A stretch of 34,369 nucleotides of DNA from Chloroflexota bacterium (lineage in GTDB: Bacteria; Chloroflexota; Dehalococcoidia; Lucifugimonadales; Lucifugimonadaceae): positions 1 through 34,369 of the forward strand of contig JAQBUX010000006.1 in the NCBI GenBank assembly GCA_027623795.1. The letters run 5' to 3'. Each line of letters starts with the position of its first letter. The first letter of the stretch is position 1. Below the pieces are notes generated by a model, which did not search any database, was not told the DNA's origin, and saw only the letters and a list, made by a program, of their open reading frames with translations. This document shows, piece after piece, positions 20,051-32,449 of this stretch. Made by a program: the position numbers and the translations under genes.

Positions 20051-21502
20051 TCAGTCCCCGGCAGGTCTGCCTCCAGCGCCTCTGCCGGGGGCTCCAATGT
20101 TCAGTCGCGCAAAGCTTTGCAAGCCGGCGGCTGCTGCGCGGCGCGTATATTTGGCTTTCTGGGCCGGCGAAAAAGTCCGCCTTAAAACGATCGCAAACGC
20201 TATCAACGAGAACAAACCTAGCGCACCGGACACTCCCTGGAACTGGTCAGCCCCTGAGAACGACCCGAACCCGAACGCCACCCGCAGCAACACGCCCGCG
20301 TTGAGCGCCACGAACGCAGCGTCGAGCAACCAGTGCATCGGCGCTTCCGAGCCCTCGAACAGCGTCAACATCCGGATGCCCACGCCAAAGATGACCATCG
20401 TCACAAAGCCCAGTGTCAGGACGTGGGTTATCGGCGCCGCAAGGGGAGCGCCGAGGATCGGATCGGCGGCGAGCATGCCGATGGCGTCCAGCGCGATCAG
20501 CGCGGCGGCGACAAGGAGCCAGCCGAACGCCGAGCGGATGAACCACGCGTAGCGCGTGTACGTGCCCTCGAAATAATCGCTCTTCCGCGCAGGTGACTCG
20601 AAAACACGAAGCGCGATCACGAACACCACAAAGCCGGCCGCCTGGAGCAGCAACCCGGGCGCCGTCCACTCGTCAGATACCTCACGGTAACGCGCCAGTA
20701 CGTACCACCCGGTCCCCACATTCAGGAGCGCCAACGCCATCATGGAAAGCCATCGATATGTCGGCTTGAGGCTCAGGAACCCGACTATCGCCCTCGTGCT
20801 GATCCCGAGGATGAAGAGGACGAGAAATCCGACGAGTCCCGCATTCACCAGCGCAAAGTTCCATAGCCCGGGCGCCGCGACGGCGTCCGTGTCAGCCATT
20901 CGAAAGACGATCCGCGCATGGAGCGCCGCGGCGATCACCGCCCAGACGACTGCCGACCACAGCCATGCCTCCGTGTGCGACCGCTTGTTCTGGCCGCGCA
21001 ACAGGGCGCGACCGATCACGATCGCGTAGATCAGCACGCCCGCCAGCAACACCACGCCGGACGCATCCAACAGCTCGGGACTGAACGAGCGGCGATGCAG
21101 TGACTGGCCAAAGAACCGAAGCGTGATGCCGATCACCACCAGTGTGAGGACCGCGCGCTGGGGCCACGGGAAGTCCATCGGGCCGTTCCGGAACCTCGGG
21201 ACAACGTGGAAAGAGACGCCCATCATGAAGAGGCCGCCCCATCCGAAGATCTGCGCCACCCCGTGCGCCTGGCCGTGGACGATCCACCAGAGGCCGCGGT
21301 CGATGCCAAATGCGGGGGCTAGCATCATCCCGGCGCCGGTACCGAATCCGTATATGAGGGCAACGAGGAGTGACGCCCATATGAACGGCCTGTACAGCCG
21401 CTGCACAGACCACGGCGTGACCGGATAACGCTCCCGAGCCGTCTCCGGAGTGATCGCGGGGACCGGACCCGGCGCTATTCTCGGAGCCTCACCCGTCGTC
21501 AT
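20051..21502 (-). CDS. NnrS family heme/copper membrane protein
   Basis: Polytopic membrane protein; HGQAHGVAQIFGWGGLFMMGVSFHVVPRFRNG and HVLTLGFVTMVIFGVGIRML are NnrS-like. Confidence 0.85.
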   Translation of the reverse strand: MTTGEAPRIAPGPVPAITPETARERYPVTPWSVQRLYRPFIWASLLVALIYGFGTGAGMMLAPAFGIDRGLWWIVHGQAHGVAQIFGWGGLFMMGVSFHVVPRFRNGPMDFPWPQRAVLTLVVIGITLRFFGQSLHRRSFSPELLDASGVVLLAGVLIYAIVIGRALLRGQNKRSHTEAWLWSAVVWAVIAAALHARIVFRMADTDAVAAPGLWNFALVNAGLVGFLVLFILGISTRAIVGFLSLKPTYRWLSMMALALLNVGTGWYVLARYREVSDEWTAPGLLLQAAGFVVFVIALRVFESPARKSDYFEGTYTRYAWFIRSAFGWLLVAAALIALDAIGMLAADPILGAPLAAPITHVLTLGFVTMVIFGVGIRMLTLFEGSEAPMHWLLDAAFVALNAGVLLRVAFGFGSFSGADQFQGVSGALGLFSLIAFAIVLRRTFSPAQKAKYTRRAAAAGLQSFARLNIGAPGRGAGGRPAGD

Positions 21503-22310
21503 GCATCAGATCCAACAGTCTCGTGTGGGCATCGGGCCATGCGGCGATCATCACCGGGAACGGACCGTCGCCATGGCGAACCCAGTCAAGCGCATCCCCG
21601 TTCCCGTCAGTGACATTAATACCAAGTTCTTCGGCAATGGCCAGTCCAGCCGCTACATGCACCCCGCCCACCGAGTACGCGACCACGCCCGCAAGCCGCC
21701 CCAGGCAAAGCTGGCTCAGCGGGTACGCCATCGAAGCGTACGTCGTCGTGTGATCCACACCGCGTACCCAGCGGAGGCTGCCGTTGGACATCATCTCAGC
21801 CGAAATTTCCGGGCCGCCAATCTCAAGGTCTACAAGCTGCTCCGACAACTTGCCGACCGGCGGCCCGGGTGACCATGGTTTACCGTTCCGGGACACCCCG
21901 CGGCCGCGGACGGAGGTCAACGTCTCGCGCATCGTGGGAACCGTGATCGCGCCCAGTACGGGGACCGAACGATCCATCAAAGCCACGTTGACGCCCCACG
22001 TGCCGAGCCCCGCCGCATACGGCGCCGTGCCACACAACGGATCCACAGCCCAGTGGAGGTCCGAACCCTCAGCCCCGGACACGCTCTCCTCCGAGACGAT
22101 CCGGTCTGACACGTCGTACGCCCTGAGTGCATTTGAGATCGCCGCGTCTGCCGCAAGATCGGCATCGGTAACGATACCGCCATCCGATTTGAAGCTTCGT
22201 TCAAGCGGAGATCCGTCCGCCTCGCGAAATCGTGCCAGCAAAACCTCGGCCGCCGCGCCGCATGCAGTTATAGCTGCGAGCAAAGCGTCCCTTCGATTGA
22301 ACTCCGTCAA
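21489..22310 (-). CDS. Inositol monophosphatase-family protein with altered metal-site residues
   Basis: GGIVTDADLAADAAI, IVSEES, WAVDPLCGTAPYAAGLGTWGVNVALMD (cf. DPLDGT), GGVHVAAGLAIAEELGINVTD (cf. WDxAAG). Confidence 0.75.
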   Translation of the reverse strand: MTEFNRRDALLAAITACGAAAEVLLARFREADGSPLERSFKSDGGIVTDADLAADAAISNALRAYDVSDRIVSEESVSGAEGSDLHWAVDPLCGTAPYAAGLGTWGVNVALMDRSVPVLGAITVPTMRETLTSVRGRGVSRNGKPWSPGPPVGKLSEQLVDLEIGGPEISAEMMSNGSLRWVRGVDHTTTYASMAYPLSQLCLGRLAGVVAYSVGGVHVAAGLAIAEELGINVTDGNGDALDWVRHGDGPFPVMIAAWPDAHTRLLDLMHDDG

Positions 22311-23653
22311 CGCGTCCGGACTGCGCCAGATTTGAGCATCTCACGCCCGACAAACAACATGCGTTCGGTGTTGTCCGCCATGTATCCGCCGAGTAGATCG
22401 GCCGCGGCCTTGGGCTCCCGGGCATTGATCATCGCCCGGCCGCGCGCGGCCATGTCGTACGCCGACCCGAACAGCCCTTTCTGGAGGTCCCACCAGCCTT
22501 CGTGGATCTCCTTCATTCTGTCGTAGCCTCCGGCGAGACCTTCCTGAGCGAGATCGTGGAACATCCACCATGGGCTGCCCGGCGAAGAGCTACTGCCGCC
22601 AACCGATAGCGCCTCCGGCAGGTCGCCCTCGATAAATACCGGGAAGAACAGCGCCATGCACGGCAAGTACATGCCACACCAGTAAACCGGCAACCGTGAG
22701 CCGTCCGCGCACAGATCGGCTATGAGGCTCGCTGTCGTGGCTCCGCCTTCATATTGCGGATGCGTACAGATGCCCCTGAGATCGCCCGGAACCGGCTCAA
22801 ACTTTCCGGGCTCACCCTCCGGCGCGCCGTGATCGGACAGCGTGAGCATCAACTTGCCGAAATCGATCTCACCGGTGTGGTACTCAAGTATCGAGGACGA
22901 CCGGGATTGTCGGCGCGCGCCCGACGTTGCGTCGTTCACCGCGGAGTACGCCGCAGTCCAGTCGAAGGCGTCTCCGCGTCCCACCTCAAACAGACCATGC
23001 CGGGCCGCCTGCGCCTCAGCCCCCGGTGACAACCGCACTTCGCCGTCCATGGCGCTGACGTTGCTGACGCTGTGCGCGCCGGACGCCGGACGAACCGCCC
23101 ATTCGTGTCCCACCGCCTCGACGACGAACGCTTCTTGCGGGTCGGCGACGAGGTAGATGTTGTCGTACGTCCGCACTCCGGCGTCGTTGCTGAACTTGCC
23201 CTGGCCGTACTTCTCCACGAGTCCCGTGATCACATCGACCGACTCTCTCGCGCTCGCGCCGCGCTCCAACGCCAGACGAAGTACCTCCATGCCGATCAGC
23301 TTTCCTTCGCCGGCCTCCGGAAGGAGCGACGGAAGAGCCTCGTTCCCGATCACGACCTGGTGCTCATTGAACCCGTGCTCGTAACCCCAGCACCAGTCTG
23401 GCCGCGAACCGACATGCCGGTGAGCGGGGGACGCGCCGTCGATATCCACGAACTGTGTGCCGGGACGAGCGGACGAGGTCGCGGCATGTAACTCGAGGGG
23501 TTGGGCCTCGTGCGATGGCCGGTCGCTATTCTTCGCAAAGAGCGTCTGCCCGCCCTTCGAGGCTCCACCGATCGACACCATCGTGTCGCAGCTCGTGTAA
23601 CGGCCGGGGATGCGATCTATAACGTGATCCGGGAGACTTTTACTCGGGTTCAT
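22307..23653 (-). CDS. Peptidase C69 / secernin-like N-terminal nucleophile hydrolase
   Basis: YTSCDTMVSIGGASKGGQTLFAKNSDRPSHEAQPLEL; internal Cys as candidate Ntn nucleophile; EHGFNEHQVVIGNEAL. Confidence 0.85.
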   Translation of the reverse strand: MNPSKSLPDHVIDRIPGRYTSCDTMVSIGGASKGGQTLFAKNSDRPSHEAQPLELHAATSSARPGTQFVDIDGASPAHRHVGSRPDWCWGYEHGFNEHQVVIGNEALPSLLPEAGEGKLIGMEVLRLALERGASARESVDVITGLVEKYGQGKFSNDAGVRTYDNIYLVADPQEAFVVEAVGHEWAVRPASGAHSVSNVSAMDGEVRLSPGAEAQAARHGLFEVGRGDAFDWTAAYSAVNDATSGARRQSRSSSILEYHTGEIDFGKLMLTLSDHGAPEGEPGKFEPVPGDLRGICTHPQYEGGATTASLIADLCADGSRLPVYWCGMYLPCMALFFPVFIEGDLPEALSVGGSSSSPGSPWWMFHDLAQEGLAGGYDRMKEIHEGWWDLQKGLFGSAYDMAARGRAMINAREPKAAADLLGGYMADNTERMLFVGREMLKSGAVRTR

Positions 23654-24529: not shown

Positions 24530-27505
24530 ATGTCCACCCAGCTGACGCCCGGAGAAACCGCCCCGGACGCACAACGGCTAGGCCCCTACAGGCTCGTCGA
24601 GCCGGTTGCCGAAACGCCGATGACGTCGGTGTACAAAGCGATCAACTCCGCCGATGGCCGGTCGCTAGCCTTGCGCGTGACCAACGCCGGCCTGCTTGCG
24701 GACCCTGACCGGTTGCGCGGGCTGCTCGAAGCCTCCAACCAGACCGCTACCCTGCACCATCCGAACGTCCTCCGCGTGTTCGACATAGGTGGGGAAGATG
24801 GACGGTTCTACATAGCGACGGAACTCCTGCCCCAGAGCATGGAGATCAACCTGGAGTTCAGCGGCCAGATGTCTTTCGCGCAGGCGGCGCGCTTCGCGTC
24901 GGAGATCGCCAGCGGTGTCGCGACGGCGCACGACGCGGGACTGATCCACGGGGGTCTTTCGCCCCACAATGTGCTCGTCGGAACGGACGGCATCTCCAAA
25001 GTGTCTGACTTCGGAGCGGCCGCGTTGTCGCGGCCGGCGGGCCGGCTACCGTACTTCTCGCCCGAGCAGGCGACGGGCAGTCCGGCGGTACGGTCGAGGG
25101 ATATCTACGCCCTGGGCGCCCTCCTCTACCACATGCTCGCCGGACGGCCGGTGTTCAATATCGCGGACCCTCGGGCGTTGCTGGCGGCCCACGCGGGAAC
25201 AGAACCGGAGTCCATCAGGACATTCCGTTCAGATCTCAAAGTCAGGTTCGCCAAACTCGTAATGTCCTGCCTGGAAAAGAGCCCGGGACGCAGGCCGTCA
25301 TCAATGGCAGAGCTCGCCGAACAGTTAGACGGCATCGCATCGCAGGCGGAGGGCAGCGATGTTCGCAAGGCGGTCGCTTCCGGCGAAGATGCGCCCGTCG
25401 TTCGCAGGAAAGCCCCGGTAAACGATTCCGGCGGCCTCGACGGCCCGCCACCGCCTCCATCGACCGCGCCAAACCCGGGCACATGGCTGGAGGCCGGCGA
25501 AGTCACTGAGCCGCGTGCTGAGCACGCTTCGGTCATGTTATCCAGCGGACAGATGTTGATTTTTGGCGGGCGCGGCGGCGTGAGCACTTACGAGATGTAC
25601 GACCCGGAGATGGAGCTGTGGCTGCCGGCGGCGGCCGCGCCGGAAGCGCGTACGTGGCCTACTGCGACCGTGCTTCCGGACGGCAACATCCTGATCGCCG
25701 GCGGGTACACGGCGACCGAGCCGTTGGCCACGACGGCGCTGTTCGACCCGCGCAAACGAGCATGGTCGGAAGCGGCGGCGATGTCGGACGCCCGTGCGGA
25801 ACACACGGCGACCCTCCTCGATGACGGCAAGGTGCTGATTTGCGGCGGACTCGGATCACAGGGCGTCTTGAAATCCGGCGAGCTATACGATCACGAGTCC
25901 GACACATGGACCGCCGTAGATCCGATGGGCGGTGATCGCGTTCGCCACACGGCGACGCGGCTCAAGGACGGAAGGGTCCTCGTCGCCGGAGGGTTTTCGG
26001 AAGAAGGGAACCAGTCGACCGCAGAGATTTTCGATCCGCGTCAGGGGACATGGACCGGGACCCACTCGATGGAAGCCCCGCGCTGGCGTCACACGGCGAC
26101 GATGCTCCTCAATGGCGAAGTTCTGGTTGCCGGTGGTGAAGACGATGCCGGAGGAAAGATGCGCACGGCTGAGGTGTTCAGACCCGGCGCGGCGCTATGG
26201 GAACCGGTCTCCCCTATGGAGGGTGAACGCTACGACCACTCGTCCGCGCTGCTGGACGATGGAAGGGTGCTCGTCACCGGCGGTTACGGCGGAACCCGTG
26301 CACTCGCGAGCGCCGAGATTTACGAGCCGTACTCAGCGAAGTGGGAGTCAGCGGGGTTTTTCAAACAGGCCCGCATGTGGCACACATCTCACCTGTTGCC
26401 AGACGGCCGGGTCCTCATCGCAGGGGGCTACGCGGACGGAGCAACCCGCTCGATCTGTGAGCTTTTCGATCCCTCGAGCGGCGGATGGGCGGCGCCGCCG
26501 AAGTTGAAGATTCGCCGATATTCCCACACCGTCTCCACCTTGCCAGACGGAGACCTCCTGGTGGGCGGCGGCTACAACCAGGACGGCACGCTGGACTCCG
26601 CTGTCTTGTACCGGCCATCGGACGGACGGTGGGAAGACACGGGCGCCATGATCGAGGGCCGATTCGACCATCTGTCCGTTGAACTGGACGACGGCCGAAC
26701 GCTTGACGTTGGCGGCCGGAACGGGGACCGCGTTCTCGCGTCGGCCGAAATATACAGCCCGTCTCGCGGGACGTGGCAATCCGCCGGAGAAACGCCCGTC
26801 GCCGTAACGGAACACTCAGCGACGCGCTTGCGGGACGGGACCGTTCTCGTGGCCGGAGGCTGGAACGCCGAGAAGATCTCCAACGCCGCATACCTTTTCG
26901 ATCCTGCGGCAGGTAAATGGCATCCCGCCGAGCGCATGCTCAGGAACAGGCGCTGCCACAGCGCGGTCGCCTTGATCGACGGTCGCGTGCTCGTGACCGG
27001 AGGATGGGATGGCTCCGGGTTCCTTGAGACGGCGGAGTTGTACGATCCGGCCAGGAATAAGTGGACCAAGATAGCGCCGATGTCGCACTCCCGTTTCAAC
27101 CACGTGTCGGTGCTTCTAAAGGACGGACGAGCGCTGATCGCCGGGGGCATCGCCGACGACGGCGCCCTTGCGATGTGCGAGGTGTTCAGCCCCCTGGCTG
27201 GCACATGGGCGCAGGTCGGCGATATGGCCCGTGCCCGTTACCTCCACTCGGCCGTGCTCCGCGAAGACGGCACCGTGGTCGTAGCAGGAGGCCGTGCTGA
27301 CGACTACGCATGTGTCGCGACCGCCGAGGTATTCGACCCGGCGACGCGCGGCTGGGTTCAGGCCGGGCGCATGGCGCAAGCCCGAACGTGGCACACGACA
27401 TCATTACTCCGGGATGGGCGCGTTCTGGCTGCGGGCGGGTACGCGGAGGTGTTGGGAGGCGGCCACTTCCTGGACTCAGTCGAGATCCTGGACGCGGCCG
27501 CCTGA
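24530..27505 (+). CDS. Pseudokinase-kelch fusion: degenerate Ser/Thr kinase-like domain (about 24587-25340) + 14 kelch repeats (about 25478-27502)
   Basis: Kinase fold signatures (SDFGAAAL, FSPEQATG, DIYALGALLYHMLAGRPVF) but LALR for VAIK and HGGLSPHN for HRDLKPEN; then 14 units of the type M..AR..HT.T.L.DGRVL.AGG......AE.YDP....W... Confidence 0.9.
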   Translation: MSTQLTPGETAPDAQRLGPYRLVEPVAETPMTSVYKAINSADGRSLALRVTNAGLLADPDRLRGLLEASNQTATLHHPNVLRVFDIGGEDGRFYIATELLPQSMEINLEFSGQMSFAQAARFASEIASGVATAHDAGLIHGGLSPHNVLVGTDGISKVSDFGAAALSRPAGRLPYFSPEQATGSPAVRSRDIYALGALLYHMLAGRPVFNIADPRALLAAHAGTEPESIRTFRSDLKVRFAKLVMSCLEKSPGRRPSSMAELAEQLDGIASQAEGSDVRKAVASGEDAPVVRRKAPVNDSGGLDGPPPPPSTAPNPGTWLEAGEVTEPRAEHASVMLSSGQMLIFGGRGGVSTYEMYDPEMELWLPAAAAPEARTWPTATVLPDGNILIAGGYTATEPLATTALFDPRKRAWSEAAAMSDARAEHTATLLDDGKVLICGGLGSQGVLKSGELYDHESDTWTAVDPMGGDRVRHTATRLKDGRVLVAGGFSEEGNQSTAEIFDPRQGTWTGTHSMEAPRWRHTATMLLNGEVLVAGGEDDAGGKMRTAEVFRPGAALWEPVSPMEGERYDHSSALLDDGRVLVTGGYGGTRALASAEIYEPYSAKWESAGFFKQARMWHTSHLLPDGRVLIAGGYADGATRSICELFDPSSGGWAAPPKLKIRRYSHTVSTLPDGDLLVGGGYNQDGTLDSAVLYRPSDGRWEDTGAMIEGRFDHLSVELDDGRTLDVGGRNGDRVLASAEIYSPSRGTWQSAGETPVAVTEHSATRLRDGTVLVAGGWNAEKISNAAYLFDPAAGKWHPAERMLRNRRCHSAVALIDGRVLVTGGWDGSGFLETAELYDPARNKWTKIAPMSHSRFNHVSVLLKDGRALIAGGIADDGALAMCEVFSPLAGTWAQVGDMARARYLHSAVLREDGTVVVAGGRADDYACVATAEVFDPATRGWVQAGRMAQARTWHTTSLLRDGRVLAAGGYAEVLGGGHFLDSVEILDAAA

Positions 27506-27751
27506 ACCGCGGCCAGTGCCGTGCCCGGTTGCCCCGGAGGCAAAGCCATGTTCCGTCGGTTTGTACGCGCGACGGTTGGGGTTCGTGCCGACGAATCGCT
27601 TCATGCGAGGTGTCACGATGGTCCCATACGGCTCAGAGATCGGATTCACGGCTTCCGGGACGATAGTTAAGCGGTCTGGCCGCCACTCCCGCCGGGTCGG
27701 GCTTTTGACCTCATTGAAGTGCGTCAGGCAGATGGAGGCCCGCGGCCAGCG

Positions 27752-30700
27752 ATGGTGGACACAACGGACACATCCCGCCGAATTGGCAAGTACAACGTCC
27801 TGGAAGACCTCAGCGGCGAAGGGCATTCCAGGGTATTCCGGACCTTCGACCCGTCCTCAAGCCAGATGGTCGCGCTCAAATTACTGAACGAAGATTTGGC
27901 GGGCGACTTCAGTTTCTCTCAACGCTTTGAGGCCACTGCCGAGACGATCGCCGGCATAGACCACCCAAACCTGGTCCGCATTTTTACCGTCGGCAAGCAC
28001 GAAGGCGCGCCTTACGCCGCCCAGGAGTTCCTGTCCGACGATCTTCGGACCATCGTCGGACTCCCGGAGCCGATCAGCCTTGAGCGAGCCATCGAGCTGA
28101 GCAAGCAGGTCCTCGCCGGGCTTGCCGCCGCCCACGGCGCAGGAGTTCTGCACAGCGCCCTGAAACCGTCCAACGTCCTCATGGGCACCGACGGACAGGC
28201 CAAGCTGGCCGACTTCGGAATGATCCAAACCGCCGACATCTCCACAGCGATCGATCGCGGCGGTGTTCAGGCCGTCCTGCTCCACTACATCTCGCCTGAA
28301 CAGGCCCGGGATCACGCGATCGACACCCGGACCGATGTTTACGGCGCCGGCTGCCTTCTGTATCACCTGTTCTCCGGCAAGGCGCCCTTCGACGGACTCG
28401 AGCCGGGTCCTATCGTCCGCGCCCAGATCGGCGACGATCCCCCGCGCCCGAGCGAAATCCGCGCCGATCTCCCTGAGCGAATTTCAGACTTGATCATGAT
28501 CGCCATGGCGAAGGACCCGGCGCAGCGATTCCAGTCCGTGACGGACATGTCCGCCGCCCTTGATGGCGCCGTCATCGCCATCAACGAACCGGAAACGGAG
28601 CCAGGAAAACGCAAGAAACGGCGCGATCCGGCTGATCCTGAAGGCCCGAAGCCCCGGAAGAAAGGCGGCGTCGGGTACGTCATGCCTGCAGGTGAGTGGC
28701 GCTCCGGGCAGGCCCTCGCGACAGCGCGCGCGGAGCACACCGCAACGACGCTTAAGGACGGCAGGGTTCTTGTGGCGGGGGGCCAGCGTGAAAGTGGCAC
28801 GGCCGAGGTGTTCGACGCCTTCGAAAACCGGTGGGCTAGCGCGGGCTCGCTAACGCACCCCCGGACGCGCCATACGGCCACGGTGCTGGGGGACGGTGGG
28901 GTGCTCGTCGCTGGTGGATACAAAAACCTGGAGCCCTTCGACGCGTGTGAGACGTACGACCCGGAATCGAATAGCTGGTCGATCACGGGCAGCATGTTGA
29001 CGAAAAGGGCCGGTCACTCGGCCACCTTGATGCGGGACGGAAAGATTCTCGTCTCGGGAGGATACGGGGAACAGGGAATCGAAGCTTCTGCCGAGCTTTA
29101 CGATCCGAGCACAAAAGAGTGGACAAGAGTCGGAGCGATGGCCCACTCCCGCGCCGAGGCGGTGATGATAGGTCTGCCATCCGGCAGCGCCGTGATAATC
29201 GGCGGCCTCGGTGAAAACGGACGTGAAGCGTCCCTGGAGATATTCAACCCGACCAGAAACTCCTGGTCTCCCGGCGTGCCGATGAAAGTGGCGCGGAGTC
29301 GCCACACGGTCTCGGTCCTCCATAACGGACGTCTTCTCGTTGTCGGCGGAGAGGACGAAGATGGCGATCCTATAAGTTCGGCGGCGATTCTCGACCCGTT
29401 TCGCGGGGACTGGACCGATGCCGGTGTGCTCACCGATCCGAGGTCCCAGCACTCAGCCACCGTGCTTCCGGACGGCCGTGTCGTCGTAACCGGCGGCATG
29501 GACGAAGAGGTCGAACTTCTTTCAACCGAGATTTACGACTCGGTATCAAATCGGTGGTCGCTAGCGGCCAGCCCGGAGTCGGCGCCACTGTGGCACACCG
29601 CCAGCCTGCTCGCCGACGGACGCGTACTTCTGGCCGGCGGGTACGTGAACGACAACGTCGCCAACTCCACGCAAGAGTTTGACCCGGCGAGCGATGAATG
29701 GTCCCAGGCGGGCCGAATGGCGCACGAGAGATACGTCCACACCGCCACGACGCTAAAGGACGGCCGTATCGCCATCGTCGGCGGGTGGGACGGCGTGGCG
29801 CCCGTTGGTCCGATCGAGATCTATGACCATGCGAAGAAATCCTGGAATCCGTCGGGATCGATGAATATCCCGCGTTTCGACCATCGGTCCATGCTGCTCG
29901 AAAACGGAAAGGTCTTAATTGCCGGCGGCCGGTCCGGACAGACCGTCCTCGCCGAAACAGAGCTTTTTGACCCCGCGTCCGGGACCAGCGTTCCGACGGG
30001 CGAGATGGGTACGGCGCGCGCCGAGCACACCCTCGCGCTCTTGCAGGATGGCCGCGTACTCGTGTCGGGCGGATGGGATGGAAACAATATATTCCCGACC
30101 GCCGAAATCTGGGACCCGAAGTCCGGTGAATGGGCCGAAATCACCAGGATGCACGAGCCGAGACGCGGCCACACCACCGTGACGATGAGTGACGGACGCG
30201 TGCTCGCCGCAGGCGGATGGTCGGGCGACGGGCGACTGGTCGCGGCCGAGATATACGACCCCTCGACCGATGCCTGGGGGTCCGCCGGGGAGATGAGCTC
30301 GCCCCGCTACCTGCACACCGCCACCGTGCTAACAGACGGTCGGGTGCTCATGGCCGGCGGATGGAGTGGGGACAGCGTGTCGAACACGGCGGAGCTTTAT
30401 AAGCCGGGAACCCGAAAGTGGGCGAAGATCGGCAAGATGGGTGAGGCGCGGTACGTCCACAGCGCAGTCACGTTGAAGGACGGCAGGATCCTGGTCGTCG
30501 GAGGCCGGGCCGGGAAGTTCATGTCCCTCTCAACGGCAGATATCTGGGACCCGGTCAAGGGCTCGAAAAGCCCCTGGATGGCTGCGGGCCGCATGGCGTC
30601 CGCCCGGCTGTGGCACACGGCGTCCCTTCTTCCGGACGGCACGGTGCTTGTCGTCGGTGGCTGGACAGAGATCCTTGGTTCAGGCCGATTCATGGCGAGC

Positions 30701-30847
30701 GCTGAGCTATTTGACCTGGCCGAGTTTGATGCCGGGGCAAGCGACGCCGCGATGGTCAGTGATGCCCCGGTGGCCATACCGGACGGCGAAGCAGAGACCG
30801 GCGAGGAAGACGCTTCGACCCAACCTGCCCAGGAGACGGCCGCGTAG
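27752..30847 (+). CDS. Pseudokinase-kelch fusion, second copy: kinase-like domain (about 27785-28570) + 14 kelch repeats (about 28691-30728)
   Basis: MVALK retained, HSALKPSN for HRDLKPSN, ADFG and ISPEQARD retained; basic linker GKRKKRRDPADPEGPKPRKK then 14 kelch units. Track start is GTG 27719; ATG 27752 is an alternative. Confidence 0.9.
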   Translation: MVDTTDTSRRIGKYNVLEDLSGEGHSRVFRTFDPSSSQMVALKLLNEDLAGDFSFSQRFEATAETIAGIDHPNLVRIFTVGKHEGAPYAAQEFLSDDLRTIVGLPEPISLERAIELSKQVLAGLAAAHGAGVLHSALKPSNVLMGTDGQAKLADFGMIQTADISTAIDRGGVQAVLLHYISPEQARDHAIDTRTDVYGAGCLLYHLFSGKAPFDGLEPGPIVRAQIGDDPPRPSEIRADLPERISDLIMIAMAKDPAQRFQSVTDMSAALDGAVIAINEPETEPGKRKKRRDPADPEGPKPRKKGGVGYVMPAGEWRSGQALATARAEHTATTLKDGRVLVAGGQRESGTAEVFDAFENRWASAGSLTHPRTRHTATVLGDGGVLVAGGYKNLEPFDACETYDPESNSWSITGSMLTKRAGHSATLMRDGKILVSGGYGEQGIEASAELYDPSTKEWTRVGAMAHSRAEAVMIGLPSGSAVIIGGLGENGREASLEIFNPTRNSWSPGVPMKVARSRHTVSVLHNGRLLVVGGEDEDGDPISSAAILDPFRGDWTDAGVLTDPRSQHSATVLPDGRVVVTGGMDEEVELLSTEIYDSVSNRWSLAASPESAPLWHTASLLADGRVLLAGGYVNDNVANSTQEFDPASDEWSQAGRMAHERYVHTATTLKDGRIAIVGGWDGVAPVGPIEIYDHAKKSWNPSGSMNIPRFDHRSMLLENGKVLIAGGRSGQTVLAETELFDPASGTSVPTGEMGTARAEHTLALLQDGRVLVSGGWDGNNIFPTAEIWDPKSGEWAEITRMHEPRRGHTTVTMSDGRVLAAGGWSGDGRLVAAEIYDPSTDAWGSAGEMSSPRYLHTATVLTDGRVLMAGGWSGDSVSNTAELYKPGTRKWAKIGKMGEARYVHSAVTLKDGRILVVGGRAGKFMSLSTADIWDPVKGSKSPWMAAGRMASARLWHTASLLPDGTVLVVGGWTEILGSGRFMASAELFDLAEFDAGASDAAMVSDAPVAIPDGEAETGEEDASTQPAQETAA

Positions 30848-30952: not shown

Positions 30953-32449
30953 TCACCCGGCGACGCTACGCGCGCGGCCCACCGCGTCGTACCAGCCCGC
31001 GATAAGGCGAGCGCGCTCACCCGCCGCCATCTCCGGCTCATATCGCGCCCCGGCCCGCCAGAGCCTTCCGATCTCCGCCTCGCTGCGCCACATTCCTGCG
31101 CCGCGGCCGGCCAGAAAGGCGGCGCCGAGGGCCGTCGTCTCGCTCACGTCGGACACCTCGACCGGCCGGTCGATGATGTCCGCCTGGAACTGCATCAGGA
31201 ACCGGCTGGCCGTCTGTCCCCCGTCGACCCGCAACGGAGAAGACGATCGCACTCCGGACCCCGACATCGCCCGAATCACGTCGCGCACCTGGTACGCCGT
31301 CGCCTCCAGCGCCGCCCGAGCGAGGTGTTCACGCGACGAGCCGCGCGTCAAACCGGTGATGATGCCGCGTGCGTCCGGGTCCCAGTGCGGCGCCCCGAGC
31401 CCCACAAATGCCGGCACCATGTACACCCCGCCGTTGTCTGACAGCGTCAGGGCCATATCGTCCGTCTCTTCCGCGGAGGCGACCACGCCGAGGCCGTCAC
31501 GCAACCACTGCACCGCCGCCCCAGTCACGAAAACTCCGCCCTCGCTGGCGTAGGTCCGTCTCGATCCGACCTGCCAGCCGACCGTGGACAGAATGCCATC
31601 CGTCGACGCCGGCGGGCTGGAACCGGCATTTGTCAGCACAAACGCGCCGGTGCCGTACGTGCACTTGGTCATGCCCTTGCTGAAACAGGCCTGGCCGTAG
31701 AGCGCCGCGTGCTGGTCACCCGCGACACCGGTCACCGGTAGCTCAGCGCCGAGTTCCGTAGCGTCCGTAACCGCGAAGTCTCCCGCGGAGGGCCGAACCT
31801 CGGGCAGCATCGCCCGCGGCACTCCAAATAGCTCCAGTAGCGATGAGTCCCACTCAAGATCGTGGATGTTCAGCAGCATCGTTCGTGAAGCGTTGGTGAC
31901 ATCTGTGACATGAGAGCGACGCCCCGAGAGCCGAAACAACAACCACGAATCGACGGTGCCGAAGCACAGATCCCCGGCCTCAGCCCTGCGCTGACCATCG
32001 GGGATGCGGTCGAGCAGCCAGCGCAACTTTGTGGCCGAGAAATAGGGATCGACCACGAGTCCCGTGCGGTCGCGTATGTCTCCAGAACGCCCCTGACGGA
32101 CCAGCTCGGCGCACGCGTCTGCCGTACGCCTGCACTGCCACACGATCGCGTTCGACACGGGTTCACCGGTCGCCCGGTCCCACACGACGACGGTCTCACG
32201 CTGATTGGTGATCCCGATCGCAGCGATCCCCGCCATGCCGACACCCGATTTTTCGACCGCCTCGATGGCGACCGCCCGGGCGTCCCGGTAGATGTCGGAC
32301 GCGTCGTGCTCCACCCAACCGGGCCGCGGGTAATGCTGACGCAGGTCCACCTGCGACGACGCTACCGGGCGCGCCTCGCCGTCGAACACGATCGCCCGTG
32401 TGCTTGTCGTGCCCTGGTCGATCGCGAGTATGTGTCGGGCTTCAGCCAA
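30953..32449 (-). CDS. glpK: Glycerol kinase
   Basis: ILAIDQGTTSTRAIVFD, GITNQRETVVVWDRATGEPVSNAIVWQCRRTAD, GVAGDQHAALYGQACF, KCTYGTGAFVLTNAG, VDGGQTASRFLMQFQADI. Confidence 0.95.
   Translation of the reverse strand: MAEARHILAIDQGTTSTRAIVFDGEARPVASSQVDLRQHYPRPGWVEHDASDIYRDARAVAIEAVEKSGVGMAGIAAIGITNQRETVVVWDRATGEPVSNAIVWQCRRTADACAELVRQGRSGDIRDRTGLVVDPYFSATKLRWLLDRIPDGQRRAEAGDLCFGTVDSWLLFRLSGRRSHVTDVTNASRTMLLNIHDLEWDSSLLELFGVPRAMLPEVRPSAGDFAVTDATELGAELPVTGVAGDQHAALYGQACFSKGMTKCTYGTGAFVLTNAGSSPPASTDGILSTVGWQVGSRRTYASEGGVFVTGAAVQWLRDGLGVVASAEETDDMALTLSDNGGVYMVPAFVGLGAPHWDPDARGIITGLTRGSSREHLARAALEATAYQVRDVIRAMSGSGVRSSSPLRVDGGQTASRFLMQFQADIIDRPVEVSDVSETTALGAAFLAGRGAGMWRSEAEIGRLWRAGARYEPEMAAGERARLIAGWYDAVGRARSVAG

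Follow-up and report, generated by a model that had tools for sequence, protein, structure and literature searches.

The window analysed here is a 34,369-nucleotide stretch of DNA from a Chloroflexota bacterium (GCA_027623795.1, contig JAQBUX010000006.1). A sequence-only reading of this DNA had reported two neighboring genes on the same strand, coding for proteins of 991 and about 1030 residues, and both are indeed present (K1 and K2, Table 1). The reading frame of K2 is open from a GTG codon at position 27719; the ATG codon at 27752 is its most likely start. The two proteins had been assigned a shared plan, with a kinase-like N-terminus, a linker devoid of hydrophobic segments and a C-terminal kelch region. 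Profile matches, hydropathy and the repeat count bear out this plan. The Pfam search that had been proposed matched both domains in both proteins: Pkinase with E = 1.7e-24 (87 bits) in K1 and E = 4.1e-28 (99 bits) in K2 (Pfam cut-off 31.7), and the kelch families with E of about 1e-81 to 1e-85. The best PDB matches of the kinase region include PknB and StkP.

Table 1. Features of the K1–K2 locus (positions in the window)
Feature	Position	Strand	Basis
Left flank, C69-peptidase-like gene	22307..23653	-	in all eight congeners
K1 pseudokinase-kelch protein, 991 aa	24530..27505	+	ORF; Pfam Pkinase + kelch
K1 pseudokinase domain, residues ~18-271	24581..25342	+	alignment
K1 HGG in place of HRD	24947..24955	+	alignment
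K1 kelch region, 14 blades	25469..27502	+	repeat count, AF2, Foldseek
K1–K2 gap, 246 nt	27506..27751
K2 pseudokinase-kelch protein, 1031 aa	27752..30847	+	ORF; Pfam
K2 pseudokinase domain, residues ~10-281	27779..28594	+	alignment
K2 HSA in place of HRD	28151..28159	+	alignment
K2 kelch region, 14 blades	28697..30721	+	repeat count, AF2, Foldseek
Right flank, glycerol kinase GlpK	30953..32449	-	NCBIfam glycerol_kin 667 bits

K1 and K2 lack a transmembrane (TM) helix, since the linkers between the kinase-like domain and the kelch region are polar and the 19-residue hydropathy mean peaks at only 1.3 (K1) and 1.5 (K2). The same scan gave maxima of 1.2–1.7 for the intact copies of the family and located no TM helix after the kinase domain, the hallmark of transmembrane STPK receptors, in any copy of K1, K2 or their paralog K3 (see below). 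By comparison, kinase-kelch relatives with an intact HRD motif and a TM helix peak at 2.0–2.75 around residues 330–365. This difference favors the cytosolic location that had been proposed for K1 and K2. A simple scan of the K1–K2 junction returned neither a sigma-70-like promoter match nor a terminator, and the two genes probably share one transcript.

K1, K2 and K3 each contain exactly 14 kelch repeats, one every ~48 residues. The earlier description as a double propeller is compatible with this count: 14 blades would imply two rings, with the division left at either 7+7 or 6+8. We also considered that the region might be a duplicated seven-blade unit, and found no similarity signal between repeats i and i+7. 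AF2 predicted the kelch regions mostly with pLDDT above 90, and Foldseek matched these models to the six-bladed propellers of KEAP1/KLHL proteins (TMt ~0.8, rmsd ~3.5 Å). Tandem repeats, Pfam, AF2 and Foldseek together place the region among the kelch beta-propellers. The models have pTM below 0.5, and their kinase domains were predicted weakly because the input alignment was restricted to few sequences. An enzymatic kelch region (galactose/glyoxal oxidase, NanM, GlxA) was considered and appears unlikely: the matches are weak, at the level that any kelch repeats would be expected to give, and the GlxA profile reaches ~150 bits against a cut-off of 800.

Degeneracy of the kinase-like domains

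The third paralog, K3, is encoded in the same genome on contig C11. The sequence-only reading had noted that the catalytic Asp of the HRD motif is missing from K1 and K2, and that homologs mostly carrying intact HRD/VAIK would point to degeneracy private to this genome or to sequence error. In all 11 intact orthologous and paralogous copies, from four species, this Asp is replaced by Gly, Ala, Thr or Asn. The motif reads HGG, HAG or HSG in K1, HSA, HRT, HCN or HGN in K2, and HGA or HSA in K3. The position of the alphaC Glu could be aligned in ten of these copies and holds Ala, Ser, Thr or Gly in every one. Both the Lys–Glu salt bridge and the catalytic Asp are lost in every aligned copy, and the catalytic-loop Asn and the DFG motif are invariant. 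The agreement of 11 intact copies from four species eliminates sequencing error, or degeneracy private to one genome, as an explanation. The proposed picture of degenerate cytosolic pseudokinases joined to a large kelch platform is supported, and the degeneracy is common to four species and three paralogs.

The three paralogs differ in what is left of the ATP pocket. In K1 and K3, the beta3 Lys is replaced by Arg, the Gly loop is absent and the activation segment is shortened (by ~10 residues in K1). K2 retains the VALK Lys, GEG of the Gly loop, the catalytic-loop Lys and Asn, and DFG. Pkinase scores above the cut-off, the missing HRD Asp (11/11) and the missing beta3 Lys of K1 and K3 are the sequence signature of pseudokinases; none of the three proteins combines intact VAIK, HRD and DFG motifs as canonical Ser/Thr protein kinases do. 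Among 27 other kinase domains included in the kinase tree, L029 from G028 alone lacks the HRD Asp. This protein (L029 1354-3765, plus strand) is a separate, TM-containing kinase homolog with HGNLKPANI instead of HRD.

The retained pocket raises the alternative that at least K2 has remained enzymatically active, for example as an atypical SelO- or SidJ-like transferase that would bind ATP through Lys, Asn and the DFG Asp and modify clients held by the kelch region. The pocket residues (VALK Lys, GxG, catalytic-loop Lys and Asn, DFG) are common to four species, and pseudokinases with new chemistry exist (PMC12599244). Some HRD-less kinases, such as SelO and SidJ, keep weak or altered activity, which counts against a non-catalytic reading (PMC12599244). 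Nevertheless, we consider an enzymatic K2 unlikely. The Asp and Arg positions of its HRD motif drift freely and the alphaC Glu is gone, unlike what is expected of a re-used active site. In addition, K1 and K3 lack most of the ATP pocket.

Orthologs and history of the locus

K1 has orthologs in two sister species (79% and 74% identical) and K2 in three (76–80%). All three paralogs are present in G003; G004 contains K1 and K2, with K3 split across two contig ends; G005 contains intact K2 and K3 and a broken K1. A full-length profile search of roughly 1,000 Chloroflexota genomes (overlapping sets of 250 from the order, 393 from the class and 400 from the phylum) found the full pseudokinase-kelch fusion in this genus only, at strict E-value limits that distant fusions could escape; further fusions may exist outside the phylum. 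Elsewhere, kelch repeats also occur together with a TM helix and an HRD-intact kinase, namely in G010 C53 of a sister genus and in L117 of Thermoanaerobaculia. Within the order, relatives that consist of kelch repeats alone have a hydrophobic stretch close to their start; in those inspected a Cys comes next, as it does in secreted lipoproteins. Plasmid carriage was also considered, and the sole match is a kelch-only protein.

The genomes of the genus (G000–G007) are either kinase-rich (2.8–3.2 Mb, 11–24 Pkinase matches) or kinase-poor (2.1–2.6 Mb, 0–1 match). Intact K1–K3 occur only in kinase-rich congeners, which would fit the role proposed below; the correlation is confounded by ancestry among these eight related species.

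In the kelch tree, K1–K3 form one clade (98/96 support) with K1 and K3 as sisters, and the same two proteins group together in the kinase tree (100/100). A single clade for all three kinase domains is not rejected (p-AU 0.46), and the tree itself does not recover it. The simplest reading of these trees would be one ancestral fusion that was later duplicated, with kinase data that fall short of proof.

The C69-like gene and glpK flank K1–K2 in the window and mark the site in other species. They lie 447–465 bp apart in G001, G006 and G007, and no K1–K2 remnant was found between them. In G002, ~115 C-terminal codons of K2 persist beside a truncated C69-like gene without residues ~85–288 (L253 4319-5372). 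This scar implies that the K1–K2 locus was lost from G002. On the minus strand of the window (21489-23653), the C69-like gene overlaps an inositol-monophosphatase-like gene by 4 nt.

Possible partners and selective constraint

The sequence-only reading had proposed that K1 and K2 form a heteromeric assembly. The two genes are neighbors with the same orientation; three species have both intact, and three have neither. The neighborhood survey of the pair showed that their order is conserved in sister species, as is the whole neighborhood. Adjacency is weak evidence for an obligate heteromer because the flanking genes are also syntenic, and the 246-nt gap does not amount to translational coupling. 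Furthermore, the K1 gene of G005 (L079 5886-7076) lies in three reading frames alongside an intact K2 and lacks residues ~226–870, a deletion of ~645 codons, which marks it as a putative pseudogene. K2 of the same genome shows dN/dS values of 0.084 in the kinase domain and 0.063 in the kelch region (Nei–Gojobori; these and the following values are approximate, with synonymous sites near saturation). This putative breakage of K1 next to K2 under purifying selection, with K3 also intact, argues against an obligate K1–K2 heteromer, and we now regard this form of the proposal as quite improbable. Judged from the genomes, the putative loss of K1 in G005 and the loss of K1–K2 in G002 show that the pair is dispensable.

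K3 offers a different type of evidence. In four of four species, its stop codon overlaps the TTG or GTG start codon of a gene for a PAS-GAF-HisKA-HATPase protein (TTGA, GTGA, GTGA and GTGA, with a purine-rich stretch upstream). This histidine kinase is a soluble PAS-GAF protein with two GAF stretches matched by Pfam, and the spacing makes a third possible. Its orthologs (65–74% identical) occur only in the four K3-bearing species. The predicted translational coupling of K3 to the histidine kinase is better evidence for a partnership than the adjacency of K1 and K2. The locus (L012 2148-8774, minus strand) contains K3, the coupled histidine kinase, a small P-loop-like protein that matched none of the families, and one that contains carboxypeptidase-regulatory-like repeats; this gene order is repeated in G003, G004 and G005.

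The kinase domains themselves are under constraint and not decaying. Their dN/dS values are 0.08–0.11 in K1, 0.08–0.175 in K2 and 0.12–0.22 in K3, and those of the kelch domains are 0.06–0.14. Kinase values of about 0.08–0.22 speak against both recent decay and sequencing error. K3 has the fastest evolving kinase domain of the three, with interspecies identities of 54–65% against 75–80% for its kelch region. This difference, together with the existence of presumably active, TM-anchored STPK-kelch proteins (G010 C53, L117), would fit a scenario in which only the kelch region is functional and the kinase part, inherited from membrane STPK-kelch receptors, is decaying. We judge this scenario very unlikely, given that the kinase domains of K1 and K2 are conserved like their kelch regions (73–82% versus 75–85%) with dN/dS near 0.1, and that none of the 11 intact copies contains a stop or a frame break.

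Proposed role and related systems

As a whole, these observations are best explained if K1, K2 and K3 form one family of soluble, non-phosphorylating signaling adaptors, a reading to which we assign a probability of roughly 60%. They are probably intracellular docking or sensing hubs and not enzymes, and their best reading from sequence is that of non-catalytic cytosolic adaptors or sensors within a network of Ser/Thr and His kinases. The pseudokinase domain would dock on an active kinase or control one allosterically, and the kelch propellers would bind a client protein or ligand. K2 may bind nucleotide as a switch through its retained Lys, Asn, DFG Asp and two Gly residues; K1 and K3 probably do not bind nucleotide. 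The most likely partner of K3 would be the soluble PAS-GAF histidine kinase encoded by the overlapping gene. More tentatively, these genus-specific hubs may link the Ser/Thr kinase network to two-component signaling, with K3 as a stoichiometric, translationally coupled regulator of the histidine kinase and K2 as an ATP-sensing switch. A role in defense was also considered. PADLOC and NCBIfam matches are limited to the kinase region: the MADS6 profile reaches 82.3 and 123.5 bits against a cut-off of 460, and PD-T4-6 profiles, which carry no curated cut-off, match the kinase region only. On these scores the proteins do not count as anti-phage kinases, and a defense role was set aside.

Several known systems share parts of this architecture. 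PknB-type Ser/Thr kinases (PF00069) contain the same kinase-fold domain by sequence, but carry PASTA domains, whereas K1–K3 carry kelch repeats and lack the HRD Asp, the alphaC Glu and the TM helix. The STPK-TM-kelch receptor-like kinases (G010 C53, L117) have the same order of N-terminal kinase and C-terminal kelch region, but keep both HRD and TM helix. KEAP1/KLHL adaptors share the propeller fold (TMt ~0.8), yet contain six blades and a BTB domain, in contrast to the 14 blades of the BTB-less, bacterial and cytosolic K1–K3.

Among bacterial pseudokinases, the mainly actinobacterial ActPs1 family resembles K1–K3 in the size of its C-terminal domain, which is listed as PQQ domain 2 (PMC12599244). 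ActPs1 is substituted in all three catalytic motifs (PMC12599244), whereas K1–K3 have an intact DFG and a kelch partner domain. In ActPs2, the beta3 Lys is changed to Arg, the HRD Asp to Asn, and DFG is deleted in most members (PMC12599244). By contrast, DFG is intact in K1–K3, K2 keeps the Lys, and the HRD Asp of K1 and K3 is replaced by Gly or Ala. CP1 pseudokinases are cytosolic, show mixed motif loss and are tied to PAS/GAF signaling (PMC12599244), all features that recall K1–K3. However, CP1 is fused to COG3899, whereas the PAS-GAF histidine kinase coupled to K3, and to K3 only, has a gene of its own. EssB/YukC, MviN and CP1 provide precedents for non-catalytic bacterial pseudokinase hubs (PMC12599244). 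A review from 2025 that covers the families of bacterial pseudokinases mentions neither kelch nor propeller architectures (PMC12599244). The sequence-only reading knew of no described system with this pairing; likewise, we found neither a matching system nor a description of the K1–K3 family in the open-access literature.

The family provides three paralogs that have lost the ATP pocket to different degrees and, for one of them, a clear predicted partner, the coupled histidine kinase. To our knowledge, bacterial pseudokinases are common in sequence, and few have a known role. K1–K3 are naturally present or absent among sister species, and their soluble architecture should be expressible. The family would make the docking targets of bacterial pseudokinases directly testable.
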